Source of the DNA: Syntrophorhabdus sp.
GTDB taxonomy: Bacteria > Desulfobacterota > BSN033 > UBA1163
NCBI GenBank assembly: GCA_020724025.1
Contig: DYHU01000049.1
Coordinates: 1-17,575 of the forward strand
Length of the DNA stretch: 17,575 bases
Reading direction: 5' to 3'
Made by a program: the position numbers and the translations under genes. A model generated the notes under the pieces. It was not told the origin of the DNA. It saw only the letters and a list, made by a program, of their open reading frames with translations, and did not search any database. Shown piece by piece: positions 3,314 to 11,401 of this stretch. Numbering within the stretch: the stretch's first letter is position 1; the number at the start of each line of letters is the position of its first letter.

Positions 3314-3341
3314 GCCATCCGAAGCTTCAGCGTAGGATGGC
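3314..3341 (-). repeat. Trailer hairpin overlapping the 3' end of tRNA-Ser(GCT)
   Basis: Plus-strand arms GCCATCC (3314-3320) and GGATGGC (3335-3341) pair perfectly around a 14-nt loop GAAGCTTCAGCGTA. On the transcribed strand the GCCA of one arm is the discriminator base plus CCA of the tRNA. The same loop, with a different but still paired stem, follows tRNA-Ser(CGA). Confidence 0.6.
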
Positions 3342-3430
3342 GGAGAGAGAGGGATTCGAACCCTCGATCCCGTTATTAGCAGGATACTCGCTTAGCAGGC
3401 GAGCCCCTTCGGCCTCTCGGGCATCTCTCC
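3338..3430 (-). tRNA. tRNA-Ser(GCT), reads AGC/AGU
   Basis: The RNA starts GGAGAGATGCCCGAGAGGCC and folds as a class II tRNA with a long variable arm. Acceptor arms are GGAGAGA and TCTCTCC. The anticodon stem-loop is CTCGC-CTGCTAA-GCGAG, giving anticodon GCT. The T-arm has the normal GGGTTCGAATCCC. Discriminator G and CCA are encoded. Total length is 93 nt, as expected for tRNA-Ser. Confidence 0.96.
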
Positions 3431-3537: not shown

Positions 3538-3565
3538 GCCAATCGAAGCTTCAGCGCAGATTGGC
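3538..3565 (-). repeat. Trailer hairpin overlapping the 3' end of tRNA-Ser(CGA)
   Basis: Arms GCCAATC (3538-3544) and GATTGGC (3559-3565) pair around the loop GAAGCTTCAGCGCA. Compared with the hairpin at 3314-3341, the loop is conserved apart from one base, while stem positions beyond GCCA differ on both sides with pairing kept. The GCCA arm is the tRNA 3' end. Confidence 0.6.
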
Positions 3566-3651
3566 GGAGAGGGTGGGATTCGAACCCACGTCTCCTTGCG
3601 GGAGAACCGCTTTTCGAGAGCGGCGCCTTAAGCCAACTCGGCAACCTCTCC
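3562..3651 (-). tRNA. tRNA-Ser(CGA), reads UCG
   Basis: Starts GGAGAGGTTGCCGAGTTGGC. The anticodon stem-loop is CCGCT-CTCGAAA-AGCGG, giving CGA. A long variable arm (CTCCCGCAAGGAGA type) and a normal T-arm GGGTTCGAATCCC are present, and CCA is encoded. Length 90 nt. Its first 72 nt are repeated without change in the interrupted copy at 3724-3838, which lies upstream in transcription order. Confidence 0.96.
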
Positions 3652-3697: not shown

Positions 3698-3724
3698 TGG
3701 CATGAACCTTAAGGGTTCATGCCA
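3698..3724 (-). repeat. Perfect 11-bp hairpin replacing the acceptor tip of interrupted tRNA copy A
   Basis: Arms TGGCATGAACC (3698-3708) and GGTTCATGCCA (3714-3724) are fully complementary with a 5-nt loop. On the minus strand the hairpin begins where copy A loses its last acceptor bases and CCA. There is no U-tract. Confidence 0.6.
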
Positions 3725-3838
3725 GAGGGTGGGATGTGCTCGCTTCGCTCCGCCTCCCTTCGGTCGCCGAACCCACGTCTCCTTGCGGGAGAACCGCTTT
3801 TCGAGAGCGGCGCCTTAAGCCAACTCGGCAACCTCTCC
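3724..3838 (-). pseudogene. Interrupted tRNA-Ser(CGA)-like copy A with T-loop insert
   Basis: From the 5' end (3838) this matches tRNA-Ser(CGA) at 3562-3651 base for base over 72 nt: acceptor 5' strand, D-arm, CGA anticodon arm, variable arm and the T-stem up to GGGTTC. A 33-nt insert (3736-3768), starting GGCGACC and ending GCGAGCAC on the minus strand, then replaces the GA of the T-loop. The T-stem 3' side ATCCCAC and five acceptor bases CCTCT follow, after which the remaining acceptor CC, discriminator and CCA are missing. It cannot form a normal T-loop or be charged as it stands. A pseudogene is the plain reading; a structured non-translational RNA is the alternative. Confidence 0.8.
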
Positions 3839-3854
3839 AAGAAAATTAAAGTCT

Positions 3855-3971
3855 AACGGTAAGGGTAACGAGGCCCGTTTCGGTTACCGGTAACGGTTAC
3901 GTAAAAAGAGAATTAAAGACGGTAAACGTAACCTTTTATGAACGATACGGGCTTCGTAACCGTACCCTTTT
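3855..3971. repeat. GGTAACG-rich palindromic repeat at the 3' end of tadA
   Basis: The outer arms AAGGGTAACGAGGCCCGTTT (about 3861-3880) and the reverse complement of 3943-3970 (CGATACGGGCTTCGTAACCG and following) match imperfectly. The centre repeats GGTTACC/GGTAACG words (3882-3901 and 3919-3932). The right end overlaps the tadA stop codon. It has the look of a miniature inverted-repeat element. Confidence 0.5.
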
Positions 3972-4431
3972 AAGTCCTCCTCTCCTTAAAAAAATCCTTC
4001 AAAATCTCCGCGCACTCCTTTTCAAGAACCCCTCGCCTGACCTCTATCTTGTGGTTAACACCATTATCTTGCAACAATTTAAATTTCGATTCCACCGCTC
4101 CAAATTTTGGCTCCGCTGTTCCGAAAACCAACCTTGAAATTCTGCTGTGAATCATTGCAGAAGCACACATCGAACAGGGTTCAGCCGTCACATACATCAC
4201 CGTATCATTCAGACGGTAGTTTCTCAAAATCTCGCCTCCTTTTCGGAGGACAAGAATCTCAGCATGGGCAGTAGGATCATTAAGTTCAATACATCGGTTA
4301 TGGTCCTTGGCAATCACTTCATTCCCTTTTACCAATATAGCTCCTACTGGAACCTCCTCTCCCTGGCTTGCTTTCCTTGCCTCTTCAAGAGCCATCCTCA
4401 TGTATTTTGTATCAGGCTTTTTATCCTCCAT
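3970..4431 (-). CDS. tadA: tRNA-specific adenosine deaminase TadA
   Basis: TadA deaminates A34 of tRNA-Arg(ACG) to inosine, so that one tRNA reads CGU, CGC and CGA. The 153-residue protein has the cytidine-deaminase fold with the zinc-binding and catalytic HAE motif (H56, E58) and PCSMC (C86, C89). The substrate-side PVGAILV segment lies at about 28-34. Length is usual for the family. It starts MEDKKPDTKYMRMALEEA with an upstream AAGGATAG site. Its expected substrate gene, tRNA-Arg(ACG), lies 107 bp upstream on the same strand. The stop codon falls in a palindromic repeat. A related guanine or cytosine deaminase is less likely given the HAE context and location. Confidence 0.95.
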   Translation of the reverse strand: MEDKKPDTKYMRMALEEARKASQGEEVPVGAILVKGNEVIAKDHNRCIELNDPTAHAEILVLRKGGEILRNYRLNDTVMYVTAEPCSMCASAMIHSRISRLVFGTAEPKFGAVESKFKLLQDNGVNHKIEVRRGVLEKECAEILKDFFKERRT

Positions 4432-4460
4432 TGATCTTCTATCCTTACCAAAGAATCGGC

Positions 4461-4542
4461 GCCCTGAACTGCATTGAGTTCAGGGCTTGCCATGCACTTC
4501 AGGGGATTCATGGCCTGCCATGCACCCTACGTGGTGCATGGC
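4461..4542 (-). repeat. Hairpin array between tRNA-Arg(ACG) and tadA
   Basis: Three stem-loops lie in series. GCCCTGAACT (4461-4470) pairs with AGTTCAGGGC (4477-4486). A weaker one has CCATG arms at about 4490-4513. GCCATGCACC (4517-4526) pairs with GGTGCATGGC (4533-4542), whose outer bases are the discriminator and CCA of the tRNA. A near-identical pair of hairpins follows tRNA-Ser(TGA) at 5330-5382. Confidence 0.65.
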
Positions 4543-4615
4543 GCGCCCAGCCCGACTCGAACGGGCGACCTGCGGATTCGTAGTCCGACGCTCTATCCAT
4601 CTGAGCTATGGGCGC
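4539..4615 (-). tRNA. tRNA-Arg(ACG), TadA substrate
   Basis: Starts GCGCCCATAGCTCAGATGGA. Acceptor arms are GCGCCCA/TGGGCGC with discriminator G and encoded CCA. The anticodon stem-loop CGGA-CTACGAA-TCCG gives ACG, whose A34 is the site of inosine formation. The T-arm is GCCCGTTCGAGTCGGGC. Length 77 nt. Its 5' end lies 5 bp after the stop codon of the small membrane protein gene, so the two are likely on one transcript. Confidence 0.96.
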
Positions 4616-4620
4616 ACCGA

Positions 4621-4944
4621 CTATTTCTTCTTGGGAGGCGAGGGGGAAGGAGGGATCTCCACCTGATAAGCCACATTATGTCCTCGTTGTAAATAATAAC
4701 TCACCTTAATCCGCTCCCCCACGCCAGGTAAGCGGGCAGGAACATAGATGGTCCGTCTGCCCACGGCAAAATTCATCGTTTCTCCTTTGTCACCCTGTAC
4801 GCTAAGGCTCCCCCGGTAAAGGCTGACCACTTTCCCCGAAAAATTAAAATATTGCTGAGCCCGGGAGTTTTCCGCTGCAATCATCACCAGGAACGCCACA
4901 ATCAATACCGACAGAATAATCTCTACCTTCAGGAATCTCCTCAT
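4621..4944 (-). CDS. Small membrane-anchored or exported protein of unknown function
   Basis: The gene encodes 107 residues. I place the start at 4944 (MRRFLKVEIILSVLIVAFLV) because AAAGGGAGGAAA sits just upstream; an ORF extension to 4983 lacks this. Residues 8-25 form one hydrophobic helix, ending near ENSRAQQ, which could be a signal peptide or an anchor. The remainder (about 30-95) is predicted beta-rich, with FSGKVVSLYRGSLSVQG and GERIKVSYYL, like a small OB- or SH3-like barrel. It ends in a proline/lysine tail (PPSPSPPKKK). I do not recognise the family. It lies between tRNA-Ser(GGA) and tRNA-Arg(ACG) in the same direction. Reality as a gene is supported by the ribosome site and signal-like N-terminus. 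Confidence 0.75.
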   Translation of the reverse strand: MRRFLKVEIILSVLIVAFLVMIAAENSRAQQYFNFSGKVVSLYRGSLSVQGDKGETMNFAVGRRTIYVPARLPGVGERIKVSYYLQRGHNVAYQVEIPPSPSPPKKK

Positions 4945-5016
4945 AATGTTTCCTCCCTTTTTCTCCCCGCTACAGTTATTCATCCTCTATCCCCATTATC
5001 TACATGACAATGTAGA

Positions 5017-5109
5017 TGGCGGAGAGAGAGGGATTCGAACCCTCGGTCCCGATTTTGTCGGAACACACGATTTCCAGTCGTGCCCCTTCGGCCTCTCGGG
5101 CATCTCTCC
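5017..5109 (-). tRNA. tRNA-Ser(GGA), reads UCC/UCU
   Basis: Starts GGAGAGATGCCCGAGAGGCC, the same acceptor and D-arm as tRNA-Ser(GCT). The anticodon stem-loop CACGA-CTGGAAA-TCGTG gives GGA. The variable arm is long, the T-arm is normal and CCA is encoded. Length 93 nt. After CCA a hairpin forms with arms ATCTACA/TGTAGAT (4998-5004 and 5011-5017). Confidence 0.96.
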
Positions 5110-5178
5110 TCATCCATGTCTGTTAATCAATTAAATTCCACCTTGTTATCTATCAACCCTTGCTTATCGGCTTCCGCC

Positions 5179-5308
5179 GAGAGAGAGGGATGTGCTCACT
5201 CCGTTCCGCCTCCCCCGCTCTTCGGCGGGGTCGCCGAACCCTCGGTCCCGATTTTGTCGGAACACACGATTTCCAGTCGTGCCCCTTCGGCCTCTCGGGC
5301 ATCTCTCC
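5179..5308 (-). pseudogene. Interrupted tRNA-Ser(GGA)-like copy B with T-loop insert
   Basis: The 5' portion from 5308 through GGGTTC is identical to tRNA-Ser(GGA) at 5017-5109, including the GGA anticodon arm and variable arm. A 44-nt insert (5192-5235) then interrupts the T-loop, starting GGCGACCCCGCC and ending GTGAGCAC on the minus strand, with an internal CCCCGC/GCGGGG stem. ATCCCTC and six acceptor bases TCTCTC follow. The last acceptor base, discriminator and CCA are replaced by a small hairpin with arms TCGGC/GCCGA. The architecture matches copies A and C. Confidence 0.8.
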
Positions 5309-5329
5309 GTTTCAAACAAAATACATGGC

Positions 5330-5382
5330 GCCCTAAACCATACCAGGTTCAGGGCTGCCATGCACCCTACGTGGTGCATGGC
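5330..5382 (-). repeat. Trailer hairpins after tRNA-Ser(TGA)
   Basis: A first stem-loop (GCCCT and AGGGC ends, 5330-5355) is followed by GCCATGCACC (5357-5366) pairing with GGTGCATGGC (5373-5382) around CTACGT. The second hairpin is identical to the one that follows tRNA-Arg(ACG) at 4517-4542, and its outer arm includes the tRNA discriminator and CCA. Confidence 0.65.
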
Positions 5383-5466
5383 GGAGGGAGTAGGATTCGA
5401 ACCCACGTCCCGTTTCCGGGAAGCGGTTTTCAAGACCGCCGCCTTAAACCACTCGGCCATCCCTCC
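5379..5466 (-). tRNA. tRNA-Ser(TGA), reads UCA/UCG
   Basis: Starts GGAGGGATGGCCGAGTGGTT. The anticodon stem-loop GCGGT-CTTGAAA-ACCGC gives TGA. The variable arm stem is TCCCG-GAAA-CGGGA, the T-arm is GTGGGTTCGAATCCTAC, and CCA is encoded. Length 88 nt. With the GGA, CGA and GCT genes it completes the serine set. Confidence 0.96.
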
Positions 5467-5524
5467 TGCTCTTCCTAACAAATATCCACTCTGTTCCCAA
5501 TATTTAGCCTTTTGTATTATTTTA

Positions 5525-5677
5525 GCTCTTTGAAAAAGGTTACCTAATCCCCCTTCATCCCCCTTTGTCAAAAGGGGGAAAAATTTCCCCTCCCTTTGGT
5601 CTCCGACCCAGAGCGGTCTCTGACCCGGAGGGCAAAGGGAGGTGGGGAGGGATTTTAAAAAGTTTGTTTCAAACCGC
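5525..5677. repeat. Palindromic miniature element, copy with a hairpin-loop insertion
   Basis: It begins GCTCTTTGAAAAAGGTTACC and ends AGTTTGTTTCAAACCGC. Two internal C-rich/G-rich hairpins are present, with CCCCCTTTGTC/AAAAGGGGG arms and CCTCCCTTT/AAAGGGAGG arms. The copy at 7317-7436 is closely similar but shorter. The extra bases here lie in the loop of the second hairpin and contain the direct repeat GGTCTCCGACCC / GGTCTCTGACCC. Confidence 0.7.
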
Positions 5678-5718
5678 AAAATAGATACAGTCTTTTTAAT
5701 CTTTGCTTCTGTCGAAGC

Positions 5719-5840
5719 AGGGAGTAGGATGTGCTCACTCCGCTCCGCCTCTCCCGCCCAGGCGGGATCGCCGAACCCACGTCCCGTTTCCGGGAATCCC
5801 GTTTCAGACGGGACGCCTTAAACCACTCGGCCATCCCTCC
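5719..5840 (-). pseudogene. Interrupted tRNA-Ser(TGA)-like copy C with T-loop insert and rewritten anticodon arm
   Basis: It matches tRNA-Ser(TGA) at 5379-5466 over the acceptor 5' strand, D-arm, variable arm and T-stem up to GGGTTC. A 42-nt insert (5731-5772) follows, starting GGCGATCCCGCC and ending GTGAGCAC, with a TCCCGCC/GGCGGGA stem. ATCCTAC and acceptor CTCCC remain; the acceptor tip and CCA are replaced by a hairpin with arms TGCTTC/GAAGCA. The 17-nt anticodon arm differs completely from the intact gene: TCCCG-TCTGAAA-CGGGA instead of GCGGT-CTTGAAA-ACCGC. It still pairs and still shows TGA at 34-36, but has C rather than U at position 33. Confidence 0.78.
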
Positions 5841-5933: not shown

Positions 5934-7214
5934 TTATTTTCTCTTCTCTATTCGTTCCACTCCGTTCATATAAGGTCTTAAAACCTCTGGAATGAGGACG
6001 CTTCCGTCAGCCTGCTGATAGTTTTCCAGAATCGCCACCAGGGTTCTTCCGACAGCCAACCCGGAGCCATTGAGGGTATGCACATACTCTGTCTTTGACT
6101 TCCCGGCAATACGGTATCGAATCTTTGCCCTTCTCGCCTGAAAGTCTTCAAAGTTGCTGCAGGATGAGATTTCCTTGAATGTGTCCTGACCGGGAAGCCA
6201 GACCTCGATATCATAAGTCTTTGATGCTGAAAACCCAAGATCCCCTGTACAAAGGTTGACCACACGGTAAGGAAGTTTCAGTCTTTTCAAAACCTCCTCT
6301 GCATTGGAGAGAAGTTTTTCCAGTTCATCATAGGAATGTTCAGGCTTTGTAAACTTCACCAGCTCAACCTTATTGAACTGATGTTGCCTGATCAATCCAC
6401 GGGTATCCTTTCCATAAGACCCCGCCTCCTTCCTGAAACAGGGGGTGTAGGCGGTATAATATAGAGGAAGGTTTTTCTCCTCCAGAACCTCATCCTGGTG
6501 AATATTCGTCACGGGCACTTCCGCAGTCGGAATGAGAAAGTAGTCGACTCCTTCCACTTTAAACAGTTCTTCCTCAAATTTCGGAAGTTGCCCTGTCCCT
6601 GTCATCGTCATCCGATTGACCATGAATGGAGGAAGAACTTCGCGATACCCATGTTCCCGGGTATGGAGGTCTAACATAAAATTGATCAGTGTCCTCTCCA
6701 GCTTGGCCCCAAGGTCCCAGTAGAGGGTAAACCGGGCTCCGGTTATCTTCGCGCCTGATTTAAAATCAAGAATCCCTAACTCCTCACCGATATCCCAATG
6801 GGGTTTGGGGTCAAAATCGAATCTGGGTATCTCACCCCATTGCCTGACCTCCGAATTATCGGAAGAATCCTTGCCTACCGGCACAGAAGAATGGGGAAGA
6901 TTCGGGATGATGAGAAGAAATTCCTGCAGGGCTTTTTCTTTCTCCTGGACAAAACCGTCCAGTTCCTTCAACTCCTGAGATACCCTTTTCATCTCTGAGA
7001 TGAGATCAGAAGCATCCTCCCCTTCCCTTTTCTTCCTGCTGACCTCATCAGAGACTTTCTTCTGGAGGGCTCTCAACCTCTCCCATTCCTGAAGATTCTT
7101 TCTTCTCTCACCATCGATGGCCACAAATTGATCCAGGCTGATCGACTGCCCCCTTAAGGCCAGCCTGTCCCTAACCTCGTCTAAGTGTTCCCGGATGTAT
7201 TTGGCTTCCAGCAT
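5934..7214 (-). CDS. serS: Serine--tRNA ligase
   Basis: This class II aminoacyl-tRNA synthetase charges all tRNA-Ser species (and tRNA-Sec where present). It has 426 residues, the usual bacterial length. The N-terminal coiled-coil arm (about 27-105), rich in K/E/R heptads, grips the long variable arm of tRNA-Ser. Motif 1 is near 160-185, the serine-binding TAEVP at 230-234, motif 2 [14 protein letters not shown] at 260-273, and motif 3 [13 protein letters not shown] at 382-394. The start [14 protein letters not shown] is the standard family N-terminus, with AAGGTG upstream. A promoter is visible at 7262-7290. The serine tRNA genes lie directly downstream on the same strand, so they could share its transcript, at least in part. 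Confidence 0.97.
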
Positions 7215-8583: not shown

Positions 8584-11401
8584 AACCATCATTATAAAGG
8601 CTAATCTTCCTTTTGAGATATTGACCGGTGTAGGATTGGGGGATATGAATCACCTCTTCCGGAGTTCCTGTAGCCACCACCCAGCCTCCCTCTTCTCCTC
8701 CCTCCGGGCCGAGATCGATGATGTAATCGGCGGATTTGATGACCTCCATATTGTGTTCGATCACAATGACTGTGTTCCCCTTGTCGGTCAGTCGATTCAG
8801 AATATCGAGCAATCTCTGGATATCTGCAAAATGGAGACCTGTGGTCGGTTCGTCCAGGATATAGACTGTCCTTCCCGTGTCTCTTTTACTCAATTCCCTT
8901 GCCAGTTTAATCCGCTGAGCCTCTCCTCCTGAAAGGGTCGTTGCAGACTGGCCCAGTTTGATGTAGCCCAACCCCACATCACAAAGGGTCTGAAGTTTCT
9001 GATAAATTGCGGGAATGGCTTTAAAGAAATCATAAGCTTCCTCCGCCGTCATCTCTAAAACCTCAGAAATGCTCCTCCCTTTATAGCGGATATTGAGTGT
9101 TTCACGGTTATACCTTTTACCGTGGCACTCCTCGCAGGTGACATAGACATCGGGAAGAAAGTTCATCTCCACCTTCAGGATTCCATCTCCCCTGCAGGCT
9201 TCGCATCGCCCCCCCGAAACATTGAAACTAAACCGCCCGGACTTGAAGCCTCTCATCCTGGCTTCGGGGAGTTGGGCGAAGAGTTCCCTGATGGGTTGAA
9301 AAAGGCCAGTATAGGTGGCTGGATTGGAACGGGGTGTCCTTCCTATGGGCATTTGATCGACATGGACGACCTTGTCGATGTGTTCTATGCCTTCAATCTT
9401 TTGAACGGAGGTGCACTGCTCACGGCTACGATAAAGTCGTTGGGCCAACAGACCATAGAGGGTATCAATAACCAGTGTTGATTTACCGGAACCTGAAACG
9501 CCCGTTATACAGTTAAAAATACCCAGGGGAATCCTCACATCGATATTCTTTAAATTGTTGGCCGTGGCGCCCCTGAGGACCAGATGCTTGTCTCCAATGG
9601 GCCGCCTTTTTTGAGGAAGAGGAATAGATCTCTTCCCGGAGAGATACTGCCCGGTCAATGAATCTCCGTCCTCCACCAGTGCTTTCGGAGGTCCGGCGAA
9701 GACCACCTTCCCTCCTCTCTCTCCTGGGCCTGGTCCCATATCAATAACATAGTCAGCAGATCGGATTGTCTCCTCATCATGCTCCACGACGATGACGGTA
9801 TTCCCCAAATCTCTCAACCTTTTTAGCGTTCCCAGGAGTTTCAAATGATCCCTCTGGTGAAGGCCGATGCTGGGCTCATCCAGGACATAGAGTACACCCA
9901 CCAGACTGGAACCGATCTGGGTTGCCAGTCGAATGCGCTGGGACTCTCCTCCGGAAAGAGTGGCCGCATTCCGGTCCAGGGTGAGGTATTCCAGACCCAC
10001 TTCCATCATAAACTTCAGTCGATCCTTAATCTCCCTCAAAACACCATGGGCAATCTTTTGAGATCTTGGAGTCAGTTCCAGGTTCATTAAAAAATCCAAT
10101 GCCTCTTTTATATAGAGACGGGTTACCTCCGCGATCGACTTCCCACCCACCTTGATCGATAAGACCTCCTTTTTCAGCCGGGTGCCTCCGCATTCCGGAC
10201 AGGAAATCAAGCCCATAAATTTCTCTAATTCTTCGGCCCCTTCCCCATCACCTGCCCGCCTCCTCTCCAATTCCCGGATCACCCCTTCAAAGTTCTGCCG
10301 AAAGAGGTGGGCTGCACCCTTTCCTTTTGCTCTGAATGTGATCTTTTCTTCTTCTGAACCGTAGAGAAGAATATCCCGAACCGATTTTGGCAACCGGCTG
10401 AAAGGAGTGTCAAGACTGAAATGGTAGTGTTTTGACAAACCTTCCAGAACGGGTCTTAAAAAGGCTTGTCCTCTCTCCTTCCATGGTAGAATGGCTCCCT
10501 CATTGATGGAGAGAGACGGGTCAGGGACAATCAGACCGGAATCAAAATATGGTTTCGTCCCCAACCCACTGCAGGTCGGGCAGGCCCCCTGTGGACTGTT
10601 GAAAGAGAACATCCTTGGAGTAATTTCAGGAAAACTGAACCCGCAATCCGGACAGGAAAACTTCTGACTGAAGACCAAGGGAGAAACCCCCTCCCTCTCG
10701 ACCTTCACAATCCCTTCTGAAAGGTGAGAAGCCATCTCTAAGGAATCGTTGATCCTCTTTTCTGCATTCTCTTTCACCACCAGACGGTCCACCATTACAT
10801 CGATTTCGTGGCGTTTGTTCTTGTCCAGGTGGATCTCTTCGCTCAGGTCCCGGATCTCCCCATCGATCCTCACCCTCACAAACCCATTTCTCCGGAGTTC
10901 ATCCATCTCCTTCCGGTACTCACCCTTCTTTCCCCTCACCATGGGAGAGAAAACGGTAAGCGATGTCCCTTTCGGGAGCCGAAGGAGCGTTTCGGTCATC
11001 TGCTGAAGGGTCTGTGAGGCAATGGGAACGCCACAATGGGGGCAGAACGGTTCCCCGATCCGTGCAAAGAGGAGCCTCAAGTAGTCATAAATCTCTGTCA
11101 CGGTCCCCACGGTGGAACGAGGGGTTCGTGACATATTCCTCTGATCGATGGCAATAGATGGAGAGAGGCCGTCGATCGATTCGACATCCGCCCTTTCGAT
11201 CTGTTCCAGAAACTGTCTGGCATAGGCGGAAAGGGATTCGACATATCGGCGCTGGCCTTCGGCATAGAGGGTATCAAAAGCGAGGGTCGACTTGCCCGAA
11301 CCGCTCAGCCCGGTGATCACCACCAACTGATTCCGGGGGATCTCCACATCGATATTTTTTAGATTATGAACCTTGGCTCCCCGGATGACGATTTTCTCCA
11401 T
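8534..11401 (-). CDS. uvrA: Excinuclease ABC subunit A
   Basis: UvrA is the damage-recognition ATPase of nucleotide excision repair and loads UvrB at lesions. The predicted protein is 955 residues from the ATG at 11401 (MEKIVIRGAKVHNLKNIDVE), chosen because AGAGGGAAAG precedes it and the family begins this way; a TTG at 11416 is less likely. There are two ABC modules. The first has Walker A GLSGSGKST (31-39), signature LSGGESQRIRLA and Walker B VLDEPSIGLH. The second has GVSGSGKST, LSGGEAQRIKLA and ILDEPTTGLH. Zinc-binding cysteine pairs include CPHCG, CPDCG/CPTC and CEAC/CEEC. The natural end is near YTGQYLKRK; the final residues GFVKSRHSRENGNPGEF come from the repeat at 8465-8583. Confidence 0.97.
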   Translation of the reverse strand: MEKIVIRGAKVHNLKNIDVEIPRNQLVVITGLSGSGKSTLAFDTLYAEGQRRYVESLSAYARQFLEQIERADVESIDGLSPSIAIDQRNMSRTPRSTVGTVTEIYDYLRLLFARIGEPFCPHCGVPIASQTLQQMTETLLRLPKGTSLTVFSPMVRGKKGEYRKEMDELRRNGFVRVRIDGEIRDLSEEIHLDKNKRHEIDVMVDRLVVKENAEKRINDSLEMASHLSEGIVKVEREGVSPLVFSQKFSCPDCGFSFPEITPRMFSFNSPQGACPTCSGLGTKPYFDSGLIVPDPSLSINEGAILPWKERGQAFLRPVLEGLSKHYHFSLDTPFSRLPKSVRDILLYGSEEEKITFRAKGKGAAHLFRQNFEGVIRELERRRAGDGEGAEELEKFMGLISCPECGGTRLKKEVLSIKVGGKSIAEVTRLYIKEALDFLMNLELTPRSQKIAHGVLREIKDRLKFMMEVGLEYLTLDRNAATLSGGESQRIRLATQIGSSLVGVLYVLDEPSIGLHQRDHLKLLGTLKRLRDLGNTVIVVEHDEETIRSADYVIDMGPGPGERGGKVVFAGPPKALVEDGDSLTGQYLSGKRSIPLPQKRRPIGDKHLVLRGATANNLKNIDVRIPLGIFNCITGVSGSGKSTLVIDTLYGLLAQRLYRSREQCTSVQKIEGIEHIDKVVHVDQMPIGRTPRSNPATYTGLFQPIRELFAQLPEARMRGFKSGRFSFNVSGGRCEACRGDGILKVEMNFLPDVYVTCEECHGKRYNRETLNIRYKGRSISEVLEMTAEEAYDFFKAIPAIYQKLQTLCDVGLGYIKLGQSATTLSGGEAQRIKLARELSKRDTGRTVYILDEPTTGLHFADIQRLLDILNRLTDKGNTVIVIEHNMEVIKSADYIIDLGPEGGEEGGWVVATGTPEEVIHIPQSYTGQYLKRKISLYNDGFVKSRHSRENGNPGEF

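Follow-up and report, generated by a model that had tools for sequence, protein, structure and literature searches.

Through comparative analysis of a 17,575-nucleotide (nt) contig of Syntrophorhabdus sp. (GenBank assembly GCA_020724025.1, contig DYHU01000049.1; this whole stretch is referred to as the window), three interrupted serine tRNA genes, designated A, B and C, have been characterized on its minus strand. It appears fairly probable that all three are redundant tRNA-Ser genes lying upstream of their intact counterparts, and that each carries in its T-loop the 3′ domain of a mobile mini-element resembling RtT (Rfam family RF00391). RtT, or rttR, is a little-understood RNA repeat of E. 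coli tyrT. The initial annotation of this DNA, made from the sequence letters without database searches, knew of no described bacterial element of this kind; this was incorrect, as RtT is a described relative. One form of the family is known, and a description of the RtT core, or of its relatives, inside tRNA loops was not found in the literature searched (open-licence PubMed Central (PMC) text).

Downstream of each copy is an intact gene for the same isoacceptor, identified by ARAGORN. Copy A (3724-3838) is an interrupted tRNA-Ser(CGA) with the body of the intact gene at 3562-3651, copy B (5179-5308) an interrupted tRNA-Ser(GGA) with the body of the intact gene at 5017-5109, and copy C (5719-5840) an interrupted tRNA-Ser(UGA), followed by the intact gene at 5379-5466; read on the minus strand, they start at 3838, 5308 and 5840, respectively. 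These copies, their coordinates, the common break in the T-loop and the shared insert ends had all been described in the initial annotation and are borne out by sequence comparison. Within the limits set there, the inserts measure 33 nt in A (3736-3768), 44 nt in B (5192-5235) and 42 nt in C (5731-5772). Each replaces one A of TTCGAATCC, giving the order TTCG-insert-ATCC with the break at TTCG^A of the T-loop, and each represents an RtT-like 3′ domain of two short hairpins, the second of which is, by our reading of the alignment, four bases shorter on each helix side in the window. As read from the sequence, A, B and C retain the 3′ strand of the T-stem together with 5-6 nt from the 3′ side of the acceptor stem. 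The discriminator and the CCA are missing, and the sequence continues into a hairpin that is different in each copy; this hairpin replaces the CCA end of A at 3698-3724 and is located at 5167-5180 in B and at 5704-5719 in C. Because the CCA end is lost, the product of the interrupted copies is probably not a working tRNA. None of the three was called a tRNA by ARAGORN, and no Rfam family reaches its threshold at any of them. From the 5′ end to the TTCG, the bodies of A and B, annotated as identical to their intact neighbours, indeed show 0 differences over 71 and 74 positions, respectively. The body of C differs from the intact UGA gene at 10 of 69 ungapped positions (8 if gapped), all within nt 28-44; of the five anticodon-stem pairs, four have both bases replaced yet still pair, and two loop bases differ.

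The occurrence of three matching inserts in the window is not due to chance. Model R2, built from 17 insert copies of which none comes from the window, finds A, B and C there (E values of 3.3e-10, 1.6e-7 and 1.6e-6), and no other place in the window is matched at E ≤ 1. The best three window matches of a second model, R1, built from seven of the longer modules described below, are likewise A, B and C (E of 3.5e-5, 0.003 and 0.01). In a model search of related genomes, as had been proposed in the initial annotation, R2 located the insert outside the window as well, matching 11 of 24 genomes at 29 places. A called tRNA lies within 400 bases of 22 of these places, all on the same strand and 0 on the opposite one, and five more are linked to a tRNA by reading: two contig-start repeats in G001, two in a contig-end copy in G008 and one in G017, 426 bases from its gene. 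The distinct places are fewer than 29, since four in G001 belong to a single 141-bp repeat copied at contig ends, and two in G008 (contig C36) appear to duplicate two others (C116) through overlap of contig ends. The remaining two places are intergenic. Two identical mini-elements are present within another intergenic repeat in G008 and G010 (L042:1520-1561 and L055:1499-1540).

Counting that of the window, eight assemblies contain interrupted tRNA-Ser genes, with 11 such copies identified by reading. The GGA copy is present in the window, G004, G005 and G016; the CGA copy in the window, G001 and G008; and the UGA copy in the window, G013, G016 and G017. The loops involved vary: the G016 UGA copy carries inserts in the variable arm and the T-loop, the G008 CGA copy a different hairpin in the anticodon loop plus an insert in the variable arm and the T-loop, and the G013 copy a single insert spanning the variable arm to the T-loop. 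The initial proposal of a mini-element targeting the T-loop therefore holds in part: the insert does occur elsewhere, but variable-arm loops and two intergenic places are occupied too, and it is not tied to the T-loop. Judged from sequence, an RtT-like structured mini-element in tRNA loops is real and occurs in several assemblies; its mobility we infer.

In the related genomes, the insert forms the 3′ part of a module of about 100 nt, composed successively of a T-stem strand, GGATGAGAACC, a hairpin, GGTTCG, the insert, ATCC and a tRNA 3′ end. The module is located directly downstream of an intact tRNA-Ser, tRNA-Gln or tRNA-Tyr and terminates in a second copy of the 3′ end of that tRNA; in G005 it is present as three 125-bp units. 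Its distribution was established by several searches. An exact-pattern scan of a species-genome collection, in which nine of 11 stretches were dropped as having no tRNA context, yielded one credible genome, the uncultured-bacterium metagenome-assembled genome CALLAL01 (G001), where an interrupted tRNA-Ser(CGA) is followed by the intact gene, the same arrangement as in the window. A module pattern search of the relatives matched 13 genomes, seven of which were dropped, judged by the matched sequence alone. R1 matches 12 of 198 relatives, all within the first 17 of the relative list; that this list is ordered by closeness is inferred, and 14 of those 17 entries have a SerS 86-93% identical to that of the window. 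A pattern for the 5′ half of the module matches 14 of 395 genomes of the phylum, of which eight, together with one of three G009 matches, were dropped as judged by the matched sequence, and the six accepted all belong to the same first 17. Locus L032 was dropped as a chance coding match, and 19 loci were displayed in the locus comparison.

Comparison shows the insert domain as a conserved unit whose stems, on the aligned sequences, appear partly to covary. In alignment A4, 94.5% of the cells pair, a value reached by 1 of 500 shuffles, and no shuffle (0 of 500 each) attains the 10 cells in which both sides change or the covariation score of 0.220; pair 38/51 fails in 6 of 16 rows. In alignment A2, the score and the changed cells exceed all shuffles (0 of 500). 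By our reading, both alignments contain invariant GA steps adjoining the last hairpin; a tandem GA motif has been reported in RtT (PMC7657543).

The resemblance to RtT is stronger in one direction of search than in the other. At the module L017, the Rfam RtT covariance model, whose gathering score is 45 bits, gives 30.8 bits (E of 0.015 in 17.6 kb and 2.7e-4 in 311 bases). The reverse test, R1 on RtT loci, provides the stronger link: its first four matches in E. coli tyrT (E of 2e-4 to 4e-3) are the four RtT copies of that locus (133-138 bits), and over 31 RtT loci each of its 16 matches at E ≤ 5 lies within an RtT copy and has the correct strand, positions being compared by eye. RtT and the modules have the frame TGAGAA.C...GGTTCG...AUCC in common, and like RtT the related-genome modules sit behind an intact tRNA, repeated, and end in the 3′ end of that tRNA; the RtT layout is found in these modules and the shared core in the whole module. 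They differ from RtT in scoring under the Rfam threshold and in lying behind Ser, Gln and Tyr tRNAs, whereas A, B and C hold the 3′ domain only, inside the T-loops of whole tRNA bodies, which is not the RtT layout.

RtT itself was surveyed under stricter filters in two groups. In the class of an Oceanospirillaceae locus (G401; Gammaproteobacteria), RF00391 is matched in 62 of 274 genomes at E ≤ 0.01, 19 of them above the cut-off; in the phylum of a Cellulomonas locus it is matched in 0 of 296. Thirty gammaproteobacterial places, mostly the best-scoring ones, were taken as loci. In 24 of them a tRNA is located directly upstream (-9 to 79 nt), always Ser, Tyr or Gln, and 18 loci share 15-19 nt of the 3′ end of the upstream tRNA. 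Among the other six, two lie behind genes of transfer-messenger RNA (tmRNA), one (L200) is an interrupted tRNA-Ser and three (L193, L208 and L212) have no called upstream tRNA. The RF00391 modules directly downstream of tmRNA are those of L194 and L211; the L211 module ends in the tmRNA 3′ end, that of L194 does not. In the gammaproteobacterium of L200, RtT cores are present in both the D-loop (82-nt insert) and the T-loop (79-nt insert) of a spare tRNA-Ser with an intact gene downstream; an alignment of the two inserts over 58 columns contains two mismatches and five gap positions.

The bodies of the interrupted copies were compared with those of the intact genes for eight of the 11 copies, the patterns having missed G008 CGA, G013 UGA, G016 UGA and the intact GGA gene of G005. 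Between an interrupted body and its own intact gene there are 0 differences for GGA and CGA in the window, GGA in G016 and CGA in G001, and one for GGA in G004, whereas the intact genes differ between genomes by 0-9 (GGA) and 1-4 (CGA). The GGA copies of the window, G004, G005 and G016 have one common 3′ tail, with a tail hairpin similar to that of B (read from sequence), so that B has the appearance of a single old locus whose body has been renewed. No such homogenisation is seen in C-type bodies: the G017 UGA copy shows 17 differences and, as read from the sequence, its anticodon differs, and the anticodon arm of the G016 copy is a poorly pairing mosaic. The idea of the initial annotation that the body is converted by a nearby functional gene consequently fits the GGA and CGA copies, but not C. 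A possible course of events would begin with tandem duplication of a tRNA gene, followed by entry of the mini-element into one of the loops of the spare copy, whose body would then be renewed by gene conversion from its intact neighbour, with the CCA end lost. More weakly, cleavage of the T-loop sequence GTTCGAATC may determine entry; the insert destroys this sequence.

Selection, and not gene conversion, could also have kept these copies if they were conserved functional RNAs, namely tRNA-like regulators or processing signals of a serS/tRNA-Ser transcript. This is consistent with the presence of B-type copies with a similar tail in four assemblies, with the recurrence of the A- and C-type copies listed above, with stems that covary on some measures, and with the changed, still paired anticodon stem of C. 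Nevertheless, the window copies lack the CCA end, the G016 and G017 C-type anticodon arms are altered as described, and none was seen in the examined regions of several relatives, e.g. G003, G009 and G010, although absence is uncertain in draft genomes; we regard this explanation as unlikely. Still less probable is that the copies are ordinary decayed tandem duplicates, derived from one early tRNA-Ser insertion that reached the other isoacceptors through duplication and recombination, without the participation of a mobile element. The window copies are indeed all tRNA-Ser in one cluster on one strand, and GGTTCG is common to tRNA and module, but Gln and Tyr modules, variable-arm loops and two intergenic places contain the domain as well, and the RtT core is found twice in the single tRNA copy of L200. 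Equally improbable are scars of tRNA-targeting integrative elements, in which loop crossovers would leave tRNA fragments and the inserts would be attachment-site remnants: 5′ and 3′ tRNA fragments, some tandem, do surround Ser, Ala and Asn genes, in part accompanied by a GIY-YIG open reading frame (ORF), and G001 has a tRNA-Ser 3′ fragment far from its gene, but the inserts are short, structured and placed in different loops, and the 15 window ORFs scanned contain no recombinase domain (E ≤ 0.001).

Three further candidates were set aside: a tRNA intron, which appears less likely in view of the 33-44 nt length, the T-loop position, the missing CCA end and no group I family among the Rfam hits; an assembly artefact, in view of similar arrangements in other genome assemblies; and a phage-borne element, one pattern having 0 matches in viral contigs.

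A number of observations weigh against reading A, B and C as carriers of an RtT-like mobile mini-element. No copy tested reaches the RF00391 gathering score, the best being the 30.8 bits given above; RF00391 matched one of seven loci (L017) at E ≤ 1, and over 20 genomes it gave no credible match, with none in the window. Over the same 31 RtT loci as R1, R2 has one clear match (L210, E of 0.0024); being clear in a single gammaproteobacterial locus, the insert domain taken alone matches RtT weakly. RF00391 includes a tRNA-Tyr-like 3′ end that favours tRNAs with alike ends, and the sample of 30 loci is therefore biased towards these. In A4, neither the pairs with both-side change (68 of 500 shuffles) nor the further pair types (75 of 500) lie above the shuffles, and nor do the further pair types in A2 (492 of 500). 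The structured RNA family offered as an option in the initial annotation is accordingly backed by some covariation measures and by the RtT-like parent module, but not by these measures. Pairing can also be preserved by template switching. With 1-5 R2 places per genome the copy number is low, no insertion event was seen, and there is no target duplication at the interrupted copies. Apart from the family domain of the DNA repair protein UvrA, no recombinase or nuclease domain was found in the 15 window ORFs (E ≤ 0.001), and GIY-YIG genes are present at four of 32 clade element loci and 0 of 30 gammaproteobacterial RtT loci. Finally, some Ser tRNAs carry GTTCAAATC in the T-loop, and some Arg tRNAs and one Leu tRNA carry GTTCGAATC.

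The T-loop sequence is of interest because of SegB of phage T6, a GIY-YIG homing endonuclease that cleaves tRNA genes internally and favours tandem amplification of the tRNA region of the phage; of its 83 cutting sites, 23 have the motif RAWTSGAAC (PMC13096335, the main text of which mentions neither T-loop nor T-arm). By our reading, RAWTSGAAC is the reverse complement of the T-loop motif GTTCSAWTY, and a link to the inserts is put forward as a hypothesis, with the difference that SegB is an enzyme and not an insert. In the window, GTTCSAWTY occurs in the T-loops of the four intact tRNA-Ser genes and once at 9330 inside uvrA, and it is absent from A, B and C. Among the tRNAs called in loci L012-L186, GTTCGAATC is present in all Gln and Tyr and most Ser tRNAs (commonest forms).

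A wider reading is possible, though more doubtful. RtT and its relatives would then be one wide family of miniature mobile elements parasitising tmRNA and the tRNA genes with T-loop GTTCGAATC (Ser, Gln, Tyr), either entering tRNA loops as structured inserts or rebuilding a tRNA 3′ end behind themselves; they would be moved by T-loop-cutting endonucleases, the host tRNA gene surviving via tandem duplication and gene conversion. Apart from this wider reading, the resemblance described above ties an unexplained repeat RNA of E. coli to relatives in many Gammaproteobacteria and a Thermodesulfobacteriota lineage, shows a core able to sit inside tRNA loops, and offers a possible reason for the restriction of that core to Ser, Gln and Tyr tRNAs. 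It also provides a path, open to test, along which interrupted copies may arise among tRNA genes, be tolerated there and be homogenised.

The RtT-like inserts would be a bacterial counterpart of mitochondrial hairpin elements. Double-hairpin elements of Allomyces insert in the loops of structural RNAs. The inserts described here occupy the T-loop and the variable arm, and the D-loop in L200, and R2 matched them at 29 places among the 24 genomes searched, almost every one of these being tRNA-linked. The double-hairpin and repetitive hairpin elements of Allomyces and sponge mitochondria are likewise short hairpins whose mobility is inferred; those of Allomyces have no flanking duplications, and an RNA route has been suggested (PMC2800124). 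The present inserts differ in being bacterial, in their tRNA-loop placement, in their resemblance to RtT and in their low copy number.

GIY-YIG genes as direct movers of the inserts were set aside for the little linkage noted above, and none was found in the window. GIY-YIG relatives occur in 16 of 17 genomes at 26 places; 13 of these 26 loci contain a called tRNA, and 10 of 12 examined tRNA-bearing loci contain an extra fragment of that tRNA. At L140:4905-5183 (minus strand), L147:171-446 (plus strand) and L151:1-192, a GIY-YIG ORF precedes an intact tRNA-Ser(UGA), with PF01541 in the first two. In L140 and L147, the ORF is itself preceded by a tRNA-Ser(UGA) 5′ half with the anticodon loop broken by a GC-rich double hairpin, and the GIY-YIG frame extends into the tRNA gene. 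In L153:1400-1720 (minus strand, G011), a tRNA-Ser(CGA) 5′ half with a hairpin insert is present twice in tandem, at a spacing of about 151 bp, before the intact gene. In L165, L168, L169, L170, L171 and L177, tRNA-Ala(GGC) has extra exact 3′ fragments (nt 44/51/53-76) with a GIY-YIG ORF nearby, and all of these except L168 also have 5′ fragments (nt 1-26). L185:1929-2552 (minus strand, G003) carries tandem tRNA-Asn units about 120 bp apart with hairpin inserts, before an intact tRNA-Asn and a GIY-YIG ORF. At L014:1268-1297 in G001, a tRNA-Ser(CGA)-like 3′ fragment precedes tRNA-Ser(GCU), at a distance of about 12.8 kb from the intact CGA gene, and contig C32 may contain an integrated element.

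The genes surrounding the interrupted copies are arranged on the minus strand successively as serS, C, tRNA-Ser(UGA), B, tRNA-Ser(GGA), a small ORF without a Pfam family, tRNA-Arg, a tadA-like deaminase gene, A, tRNA-Ser(CGA), tRNA-Ser(GCU), the signal recognition particle RNA, dnaX and a ybaB-like gene. The intact tRNA-Ser(GCU) called by ARAGORN at 3338-3430 is without an interrupted partner in the window. The seryl-tRNA synthetase gene serS (5934-7214), located upstream of C on the same strand, was identified through Pfam and protein relatives; the named relatives of its product are labelled Deltaproteobacteria or Thermodesulfobacteriota, among them Deltaproteobacteria bacterium RBG_16_49_23 at 93%.

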